Below, piece by piece: positions 42,378 through 45,001 of a stretch of 64,000 bases of DNA. The notes beneath the pieces were generated by a model. It saw nothing but the letters and a program-made list of their open reading frames with translations, searched no databases and was not told where the DNA came from. Position 1 is the stretch's first letter. Every line of letters starts with the position of its first letter. The position numbers were made by a program, and so were the translations under genes. Source of the stretch: Rhodobacteraceae bacterium EL53 (GTDB taxonomy: Bacteria; Pseudomonadota; Alphaproteobacteria; Rhodobacterales; Rhodobacteraceae); NCBI GenBank assembly GCA_900313015.1, contig OMPR01000017.1, positions 279,512 to 343,511 of the forward strand, written 5' to 3'.

Positions 42378-43253
42378 ATGGCAATCACAGCAGCACTCGT
42401 TAAGGAACTGCGCGACAGCACCGGCGCAGGCATGATGGACGCGAAAAAAGCGCTGACCGAAACTGATGGCGACATGGAAGCCGCAGTTGATTGGCTGCGC
42501 ACCAAAGGTCTGGCAAAAGCCGCCAAGAAATCCGGCCGTACCGCCGCCGAGGGTCTTGTGGCCGTCATGGTCGAAGGCACCAAAGGTGTTGCCGTCGAAG
42601 TGAATTCGGAAACCGACTTTGTTGGTAAGAACGCCGAATTCCAGGAAATGGTTGCAGGTATTGCTACGGCAGCTCTGGGTGTGTCCGACATCGACGCGCT
42701 GAAAGCCGCGGACATGGGCGGCAAATCCGTCGAAGCGACCATCACCGACAAGATCGCCACAATTGGCGAAAACATGTCTGTACGCCGCATGGCTGCGTTG
42801 GAAGGTGACGTTGTTGTATCCTATGTACACAATGCCGCAGCCACAGGCATGGGTAAAATCGGTGTTCTGGTTGCCCTGAAAGGCGGCGACGACGCACTGG
42901 GCAAGCAGATTGCGATGCACATCGCCGCCGTAAACCCTGCCGCTCTGTCCGAAGCTGACATGGACGCCGACGTCATCGAGAAAGAAAAGCAGGTCCAGAT
43001 GGACATCGCTCGTGAATCTGGCAAACCAGAGCAGGTGATCGAAAAGATGATCGTTGGCCGGATGAAGAAATTCGTTGCCGAAGCGACTCTGTTAAACCAG
43101 GCGTTCGTTGTGAACCCTGACCTGACTGTTGGTGCTGCTGCTGCCGAAGCAGACGCAGAAATCACTGGTTTTGTTCGCCTCGAAGTTGGTGAAGGCATCG
43201 AGAAAAAAGAAGAAGATTTCGCAGCGGAAGTTGCCAAAGTCGCTCAGGGTTAA
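42378..43253 (+). CDS. tsf: Translation elongation factor Ts
   Basis: Guanine-nucleotide exchange factor for EF-Tu. The 291-residue protein has the N-terminal UBA-like domain ([21 protein letters not shown]), the signature ETDFVGKN near residues 80-87, and two core subdomains. GAGGAGAG precedes the start. It ends the rpsB-tsf operon, followed by an intrinsic terminator. Confidence 0.97.
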
Positions 43254-43305: not shown

Positions 43306-43340
43306 AAAACCGGTTGCATCTTTTGCGGCCGGTTTTTTTT
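43306..43340 (+). terminator. Intrinsic terminator after tsf
   Basis: AAAACCGG (43306-43313) pairs with CCGGTTTT (43329-43336), with an inner GCA/TGC pairing, and is followed by more T (eight in a row at 43333-43340). Confidence 0.9.
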
Positions 43341-43372: not shown

Positions 43373-43398
43373 AAAAAAAGGGCGCGAAAACGCGACCC
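43373..43398 (-). terminator. Minus-strand intrinsic terminator
   Basis: Read on the minus strand, GGGTCGCG and CGCGCCC pair (one bulged T) around TTTT, followed by seven T (43379-43373). It lies about 260 bases past the luxR stop. Confidence 0.8.
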
Positions 43399-43553
43399 GG
43401 ATCAAAACAGGATTGAGATGAGGGACCCCAACGATGGGGATGGATGGAGCCCCTCAATTTTTTCCGGGGCAAGTACGGAACAATACGTACCTAACACCGA
43501 ACAAGAAAGAGTGCCCTGAAATCGCAGGGGTCTTTCCCTTTGTCCCCAGGCTA
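43373..43553 (-). ncRNA. Candidate structured small RNA
   Basis: The gap between tsf and luxR contains no convincing gene but a chain of hairpins. In plus coordinates: ACAA/GAAAGA (43501-43510) with TCTTTC/TTGT (43531-43543) around CCCTG/CAGGG (43514-43529); GTACG/CGTAC (43473-43490); GCCCC/GGGGC (43449-43470); CCCCA/TGGGG (43426-43439), the last also able to sit inside TGAGGG/CCCTCA (43419-43456). It ends in a hairpin (43380-43398) followed on the minus strand by seven T. A free small RNA or a structured luxR 3' end are both possible; no clear promoter was found. Confidence 0.45.
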
Positions 43554-43619
43554 AAGCCACCACTCACGGAACTTGAATATATTGCGGCGGCTAGGCTCGT
43601 TTTGAAAGTCATGTATTCC

Positions 43620-43632
43620 TTACCCTGGGTAA
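43620..43632. promoter_or_regulatory. Palindrome TTACCC-T-GGGTAA downstream of luxR
   Basis: A perfect 6-base inverted repeat around one T, 28 bases beyond the luxR stop and upstream of the candidate small RNA. It could be a regulator site for that RNA, but this is unsupported beyond the symmetry. Confidence 0.25.
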
Positions 43633-43659: not shown

Positions 43660-44415
43660 TCAGGCTTCCATGATAAACATCTGGTTGTGCAATGCGGCTT
43701 TCAGCACCGCTTGGGCTGTTGTTTCCACTGACAGGGATTCCCGCGCCAGCCTCAGATGCTTTTCTACAGTGGCGGATGTGAGCCCCATAAGTAGCGCGAT
43801 ATCTTGCGTCGTTTTACCGTCTCCGACCCACTCTAGCGCCTCGCGTTGACGCTTTGTTAGTGCTCGATTGGGTGCGCTATAAGGAAGAGTCAGGATCTTG
43901 AGATGTGCAACATTGTTCATCAGCAAGATGTCTTGACCACGTTCTGCCCAAATCGCATCCAGTTCTTCTTGGGTAATCCCAACTTGAGCACAAAGTGAGA
44001 TGGCCCCCTTGGACCGTTGGGAAACGGAATTGAAACTGACAGTGTAGCCAACGGTTACACCTTTGCTCAGGTTAAAATCATAAACCTGCTGCTCTTTCTT
44101 TCCTAGGGCCTGCTGGGACATCAGCCGCCCGATCATGGCCCAGCTTGCCGCACCATCGTTGTCCAATGCCCATCTCAGCATGGGGGCGTGGAAATACAGC
44201 CCCGAATGCAGAAACCCGTCGATATAGTCCTGACTATGGTTGGTCAGGATCACGAAATCTTCAGGATCACCCAAAGAGGTTTCAGTACGGTGTTGTGTAC
44301 AACCATACAGGAGGCGGTCAAACCCATACTCGGCCATCTGTTCGGTGTGAGCTGCCCAAAGCTCTTCGAGCGTTGTCGTATAACTGATGAATTGAAGGTA
44401 TTCACTGAGCGTCAT
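43660..44415 (-). CDS. LuxR-family regulator with autoinducer-binding-type domain (LuxR solo)
   Basis: A 251-residue regulator with an N-terminal domain of the autoinducer-binding fold and a C-terminal LuxR helix-turn-helix (LTKRQREALEWVGDGKTTQDIALLMGL split, then SATVEKHLRLARESL). No luxI is present nearby. Residues that contact acyl-homoserine lactones in TraR (Trp57, Tyr61, Asp70) appear replaced by Tyr64, Phe68 and Ala77, while the Trp85 equivalent (Trp92) is kept, so the ligand may differ. ATG 44415 lies inside the end of aroQ (14-base overlap), so the two are coupled. Confidence 0.85.
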   Translation of the reverse strand: MTLSEYLQFISYTTTLEELWAAHTEQMAEYGFDRLLYGCTQHRTETSLGDPEDFVILTNHSQDYIDGFLHSGLYFHAPMLRWALDNDGAASWAMIGRLMSQQALGKKEQQVYDFNLSKGVTVGYTVSFNSVSQRSKGAISLCAQVGITQEELDAIWAERGQDILLMNNVAHLKILTLPYSAPNRALTKRQREALEWVGDGKTTQDIALLMGLTSATVEKHLRLARESLSVETTAQAVLKAALHNQMFIMEA

Positions 44416-44860
44416 TGGATCGCTTCTTTCCAAGATGCTCAACCAGAGCGTCTAGTGCCAAAATATACCCATGTGCCCCGAACCCGCAGATTTGCCCAAC
44501 GGCTACGGGTGCAATGTAGGATCGGTGGCGAAAAGGTTCGCGAGCGTGAATGTTTGACAGGTGGACTTCTATCAATGGCAACTCTACCGAAGCAATGGCA
44601 TCCATCAGGGCGATCGACGTATGAGTGTAGGCGCCAGCGTTCAGAACAAGACCATCCTGAACGCCTCTGGCAGCATGGATCGTATCGATCAATGTGCCTT
44701 CGTGATTGGACTGCTTGCATTCAACTGCGAAACCCAGTCTCTCTCCGTGGGACGTGCAAGCTGTTTCAACATCCTGAAGCGTCGTGCGTCCGTACACTTC
44801 GGGTTGACGAGTCCCCAACAAATTCAGATTCGGGCCGTTCAAGACCAAAATTCTATTCAT
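44402..44860 (-). CDS. aroQ: 3-dehydroquinate dehydratase, type II
   Basis: Third step of the shikimate pathway. The 152-residue protein has ILVLNGPNLNLLGTRQPEVYG (active-site loop with arginine and tyrosine), NSNHEG-like QSNHEGTLID, NAGAYTHTSIALMDAI and EVHLSNIHAREPFRHRS split over conserved blocks. The start MNRILVL (44860) fits the binding site GGGGA; ATG 44869 is too close to it. luxR overlaps its end. Confidence 0.95.
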   Translation of the reverse strand: MNRILVLNGPNLNLLGTRQPEVYGRTTLQDVETACTSHGERLGFAVECKQSNHEGTLIDTIHAARGVQDGLVLNAGAYTHTSIALMDAIASVELPLIEVHLSNIHAREPFRHRSYIAPVAVGQICGFGAHGYILALDALVEHLGKKRSNDAQ

Positions 44861-45001
44861 AACAGCCATTTCCCCATTCTATGCTGTCATAGTCACCTCG
44901 AAAGGGATCTGTCTAGATTTCCTGACAGAAAGAGGGCGTGTTCCTGCGAAGGTGACGCTAATAAGAAACAGATTCACGCCCTTGAATGGGGTTGTCGAAG
45001 G

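Follow-up and report, generated by a model that had tools for sequence, protein, structure and literature searches.

Related regulatory RNA circuits

GacA of Pseudomonas is a response regulator. It controls rsmY and rsmZ, whose activating sequences are given as TGTAAGCATTCTCTTACA and TGTAAGCATTCGCTTACT in the part of PMC4353343 available to us. The regulator proposed for the present locus likewise carries a LuxR-type helix-turn-helix, and the dyad in front of the RNA, GGTAAGGAATCCNTKACTT, is very similar to the activating sequence and resembles the GacA-type arrangement TGTAAG-N6-CTTACA. The proteins that would bind the two sites differ in type, however, as the regulator here has an autoinducer-binding domain; an array of GGA loops was not seen by eye, and homology of the RNAs is not implied. 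Lrs1, a quorum-sensing-regulated sRNA of Pseudomonas aeruginosa (PMC11949849), is alike in the quorum-sensing control of an sRNA, but belongs to another bacterium and is likened by description only. VtlR, a conserved one-component regulator of the Alphaproteobacteria, directly activates the AbcR/VrsA sRNAs (PMC7486931) and offers the same scheme of a one-component regulator acting on sRNAs, except that VtlR is LysR-type and the RNAs and the order are others. These comparisons draw on portions of the cited articles, and the likeness is one of design, which does not imply homology to the rsmY/rsmZ, Lrs1 or VtlR circuits.

CerM, CerN and other LuxR proteins of Cereibacter sphaeroides are LuxR homologues from the same bacterial group. 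They differ in the CerM site, TNT(N5)AAGACA(N2)T, and in the cerR locus, and the terms sRNA and tsf are absent from the main text of PMC11655674 as far as it was accessible. The function of orphan LuxR regulators of the group is reported as unknown in the accessible text of PMC4046655 and PMC3824088. The RNA described below was not announced by any of the papers listed in searches of the open-access literature, nor is it described in the available portions of PMC8307010, PMC2864571 and PMC5107571. The "riboswitch82" of R. pomeroyi, which lies beside the LuxR gene SPO1974, was first taken as its orthologue; since the available text of PMC4809877 counts a cobalamin riboswitch among three known RNAs, riboswitch82 is not equated with this RNA.

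At the gathering thresholds of Rfam 15, only two tRNAs are detected in the window (the whole 64,000-nucleotide stretch analysed) and no family matches the RNA; as a family, it would have no counterpart in Rfam at that score. The best Rfam match at lax thresholds is SorY of Rhodobacter sphaeroides (RF02651), which aligns over its full length to the 3' part and has a similar terminator; it was rejected because its score lies far under the cut-off (21.9 vs 111 bits), and the SorY consensus lacks AUCCCCA. Qrr (RF00378), whose match covers the tsf terminator on the plus strand, was rejected at 20.5 vs 50 bits. 6S RNA (RF00013) was rejected as well, the genome's only match lying elsewhere (locus L032, G000:C17:164264-164416, minus). 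That match scores 30.5 bits vs a cut-off of 46.4, which suggests that 6S RNAs of this group may be under-called by Rfam.

Organization of the locus

The RNA gene occupies the gap that separates luxR, which ends at 43660, from the convergent tsf, which ends at 43253. The features are as follows, all positions being those of the window.

43373..43572, minus: small RNA gene, ~200 nt; start and structure conserved in relatives, 5' end predicted
43542..43572, minus: P1, containing the nearly invariant 5' segment GUUCCGUGAGUGGUGGC (alignment and sequence check)
43503..43538, minus: P2 (helices 3-5; double changes in 6/10 pairs)
43466..43498, minus: P4 (helix 6; double changes in 9/10 pairs)
43420..43455, minus: P5 (helix 7; double changes in 7/8 pairs), with AUCCCCA in the apical loop at 43435-43441
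43398..43373, minus: intrinsic terminator, GGGTCGCG-TTTT-CGCGCCC-T7 (sequence)
43579..43584, minus: -10 element CAATAT (alignment of 17 loci and sequence check)
43608..43623, minus: putative LuxR-binding dyad of 16 bp, spanning -51 to -36, 7/8 fixed bases here (comparison and sequence)
43660..44442, minus: luxR, autoinducer-binding type, proposed regulator (PF03472 and PF00196)
44402..44869, minus: aroQ, neighbour upstream (PF01220)
42378..43253, plus: tsf, convergent neighbour (PF00889)

By eye, tsf has its own T-tailed hairpin at about 43306-43340.

Structure of the RNA

The sequence-only reading had placed a candidate small RNA with several hairpins at 43373-43632. The hairpins are present on the minus strand, of which 190 nt fold with an energy of -69 kcal/mol vs -56.5 +/- 3.7 for shuffled sequences, none of 200 shuffles equalling it. 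When the gap was searched by BLAST against 61 genomes, matches started repeatedly at 43572; relatives have in common GTTCCGTGAGTGGTGGC, a short loop and GCC..GGAAC, followed further on by ATCCCCA in most. The start of the RNA is probably near 43572, making it ~200 nt long and leaving 43573-43632 as promoter.

Covariation was assessed on 29 of 39 distinct nearer loci, kept for their common P5 loop and good alignment (ten were dropped), in a plain MAFFT alignment made from sequence only. RNAalifold predicted 38 pairs, 23 of them with double changes; one stray pair was excluded, and the remaining 37 were scored against shuffles and slides. Double changes occur in 22 of these 37 pairs, compared with a mean of 11.6 over 500 shuffles, so that the compensatory changes looked for in relatives are present. 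The covariation score was 0.345 vs 0.210 for shuffled alignments, with 0/500 shuffles as high and every slide lower, and 93.9% of paired cells were able to pair against a shuffled mean of 86.9%. Helices P2, P4 and P5 are thereby supported by covariation in the alignment. The P1 pairs are almost invariant, so covariation neither proves nor disproves this helix.

The same reading had proposed two mutually exclusive pairings. One of them, TGAGGG/CCCTCA, is conserved and corresponds to helix P5, where 92.2% of cells are paired. The other, GCCCC/GGGGC, is not supported, lying near shuffle level (55.9% vs 52.8% of cells paired; 40/500 shuffles as high), and the idea of a switch goes with it. ATCCCCN is present in 106/148 loci, vs 3.8% of mononucleotide shuffles, and absent from 42. 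The predicted minus-strand T7 terminator exists by sequence, though a simple terminator scan of the region did not list it and listed one other hairpin, with 1.0 expected by chance; under a strict rule, 86/148 loci have a T-tailed stem. The minus strand at ~43572..43373 is apparently a structured, non-coding RNA gene with a terminator at its end.

Proposed circuit and mode of action

Our reading, to which we assign a probability of roughly 0.7, is that the locus encodes a trans-acting sRNA of ~200 nt under direct control, most likely activation, by the upstream LuxR. In this scheme LuxR, whose ligand is probably not a standard AHL, would occupy the 16-bp dyad (centre near -43) and bring RNA polymerase to a promoter whose -10 reads CAnnnT. 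The transcript would then fold as P1, P2, P4, P5 and the terminator, and would pair with mRNA in trans via conserved segments that are left exposed, namely GUGAGUGGU close to the 5' end and/or AUCCCCA in the P5 loop. Direct LuxR binding, activation over repression and the base-pairing mode of action are inferences. With tsf convergent, there is no downstream gene on which the RNA could act in cis. Control of the RNA by LuxR, if true, would be the first known job for this orphan receptor, which gains a testable output, one promoter and one RNA, common to 272 of the 394 family genomes sampled.

Complements of the 17-nt 5' end gave 43 matches in 37 genomes, 11 of which were the RNA gene itself, and no recurring antisense target was seen among the six inspected of the other 32. 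In the window's own genome the complement falls midway along a 901-aa frame, an oxidoreductase by reading. In genome G001 (locus L027) a 16-nt complement lies at the start of a transporter, of BCCT type by reading; since that genome has no R1 (see below) or LuxR match at the thresholds used, it was taken as chance. The lack of a recurring target would suit an RNA that mainly binds protein or acts as a sponge, as would its strong structure, its two invariant segments and the resemblance of the dyad to the activating sequence before rsmY/rsmZ in the part of PMC4353343 available. Such a role is possible, though we consider it unlikely, as the array of GGA loops typical of RsmY/Z is missing by eye from the window RNA. 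We know of no binding protein for it.

Promoter architecture and the conserved dyad

The promoter has a 16-bp dyad, GTNNGGN4CCNNAC, at -51..-36 and centred near -43, with CAnnnT as the -10; the window's copy has 7/8 fixed bases. The 13-base palindrome noted earlier upstream of the hairpins is present (TTACCCTGGGTAA, 43620-43632) and overlaps one end of the conserved element, the dyad at 43608-43623. A simple scan found no sigma-70 consensus in the region. Sites centred near -43 are typical of activators that replace the -35 element. Repression of the RNA by LuxR, or a feedback loop formed by the two, would also be compatible with the known facts, which are only the dyad site and its co-loss with luxR, and persistence of the RNA without luxR is as compatible with release from repression as with a promoter that has been rewired. 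We nevertheless judge repression or feedback unlikely, given the activator-type position of the dyad and the missing sigma-70 consensus.

The dyad scores 7 or 8 (of 8) at 132 of the 135 luxR-bearing loci. Among distinct loci with luxR adjacent and in an open frame it is found in 123 and absent in two (L107 and L141), vs three with and six without where luxR is non-adjacent or truncated. Some loci were found with queries covering the dyad (the BLAST gap and R1), which biases these counts towards the dyad, a bias from which the named pattern loci are free. At L088 and L132, two of the three dyad loci without an adjacent luxR, the gene lies 1.3 and 4.5 kb upstream, and the third, L060, belongs to a genome (G118) with a LuxR match. 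The dyad-less loci are L094, L178 (= G128), L154 and those of genomes G246, G024 and G240; no LuxR match at E<=1e-40 was found in G128, G246, G024 or G240. At L154, with luxR upstream of 4814, the luxR frame has only ~103 codons and the dyad is degraded at the same locus. Of the loci truly without an open luxR, 0/6 retain the dyad.

This pattern bears on a further explanation, in which a different regulator binds at the dyad and the joint loss of dyad and luxR is a coincidence. L107 and L141 would fit it, having luxR without the dyad, and the dyad is a predicted LuxR site; it is hard to square with the loss of the dyad at all six loci and with the presence of luxR nearby or in the genome at the three exceptions, and we regard it as doubtful. 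We retain LuxR as the probable regulator acting at the dyad. RNA structure, promoter architecture, linkage and the co-loss of dyad and luxR are established by comparison among relatives.

A weight matrix for the dyad finds one site in the window and, in 879,352 bases of the named loci, the RNA promoters plus five sites that are the same palindrome read in reverse, and a second copy at six loci. These second copies stand in tandem at -101 to -115, in L073, L080, L097, L128, L158 and L170. A 22-column dyad model, trained partly on genomes later searched, ranks the window promoter first in its own genome (18.8 vs 13.4 bits for the next site) and the RNA promoter first in 9/11 RNA-bearing genomes searched and second in G009 and G204. 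The notion of a LuxR dedicated to one RNA was dropped, since some relatives have other good dyads. In the 25 genomes with LuxR only, a dyad scoring 7-8 lies within 320 nt behind luxR in 13, followed in three of these (L200, L213, L218) by CATCCCC; the other 12 have no convincing dyad in those 320 nt, so LuxR persists there without this RNA. In two LuxR-only genomes, G362 (L228) and G016 (L238), the best dyad is at 1501-1521, 84-92 nt before a gene (starts 1593 and 1585) with two cold-shock-like domains, named by reading, which may be another LuxR target.

Between the dyad and the -10 (43585-43607, minus), many relatives have TTACG....GTAA-like bases. Loci without the dyad often retain CTTCCCCTACG between the dyad position and the -10, possibly a second regulator site. 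At L197 (G078, 1480-1800), luxR and the dyad are kept and the 5' segment is altered, with GTTCC..GGAAC and no GTGAGTGGTGG.

Distribution and linkage

At E<=0.01, R1, a sequence-only model of positions -58..+40 (promoter and 5' end) built from 17 loci, matches 272/394 family genomes. Most of these have a single match; a minority (e.g. G005, G026, G093, G149) have two matches. In a class-wide sample R1 matched 6/289 genomes, four from the same family and two, weakly, from other families, and these two weak matches have no luxR, aroQ or tsf beside them. An exact pattern found at least 119 stretches in named genomes, by title largely Rhodobacteraceae or Paracoccaceae, with some vaguer MAG titles, one Sphingomonadales and one Nocardioides among the matches listed, and gave no exact match in viral contigs. 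R1 and the exact pattern detect near relatives, and the spread may be wider.

LuxR is found at E<=1e-40 in 293/394 genomes. RNA and LuxR occur together in 268, the RNA alone in 4, LuxR alone in 25 and neither in 97, counts that are inflated by relatedness among the genomes. The usual order across loci is luxR, RNA and convergent tsf. At the 143 loci whose upstream sequence extends for 1,300 nt or more, luxR is just upstream on the same strand in 135 and tsf is convergent in 130; this set includes some loci fetched twice and also L096, L120 and L162, which have no luxR, aroQ or tsf and were dropped from later tables.

The sequence-only reading had left a choice between a regulatory RNA and an aroQ-luxR transcript with a structured 3' end. 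Processing from the aroQ-luxR mRNA, with no promoter of its own, would agree with the position of luxR on the same strand, ending 47-246 nt upstream of the RNA in most luxR-bearing loci, and with the failure of a simple scan to find a sigma-70 consensus. We give this little credence, as it leaves unexplained the nearly invariant 5' end at fixed spacing to the dyad and the -10, and the retention of the RNA at loci without luxR and at the two where luxR is displaced. Its persistence where luxR is gone indicates that LuxR is not indispensable for expression of the RNA. The comparison speaks for an independent regulatory RNA transcribed from a promoter of its own, on account of the compensatory stem changes, the nearly invariant 5' end with its fixed spacing to the dyad, and the loci with RNA but no luxR. 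A short protein gene instead of an RNA gene is hardly credible and was ruled out on frame evidence, since the 52-aa frame that runs across the region begins inside the promoter at 43612 and is disrupted by the uneven P1 loop lengths (at 149 loci these split 95/33/21 among the three frames, leaving no conserved reading frame by this measure), and the stems covary.

The LuxR receptor

The luxR product matches Autoind_bind (PF03472, 92.2 bits) and GerE (PF00196, 35.0 bits), both above cut-off. No luxI is adjacent to luxR, making the protein a LuxR solo; two luxI-type genes lie on other contigs. The canonical AHL pocket residues are W, Y, D, P, W and G, as listed in the accessible part of PMC11655674. 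With the register taken from an alignment to CviR and the four commonest residues counted per column, the 132 full-length relatives, some from genomes fetched twice, have Y/F for W in all 132, F for Y in 123 and A/G for D in 127. The pocket of this protein is a departure from the canonical AHL set as judged from the alignment, which suggests that its signal is probably not a standard AHL.

We tentatively suggest, as a speculation, that throughout a large bacterial family a LuxR solo whose non-canonical pocket is conserved may sense a small molecule, with a single RNA as its most conserved output. A switch of this kind, in which a one-component receptor acts on an sRNA through an operator that resembles the GacA box, might have evolved apart from the Gac/Rsm and Qrr circuits. 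The P of the AHL pocket is kept in 131/132 full-length relatives and the second W in 132/132, and much of the LuxR helix-turn-helix is invariant among them.
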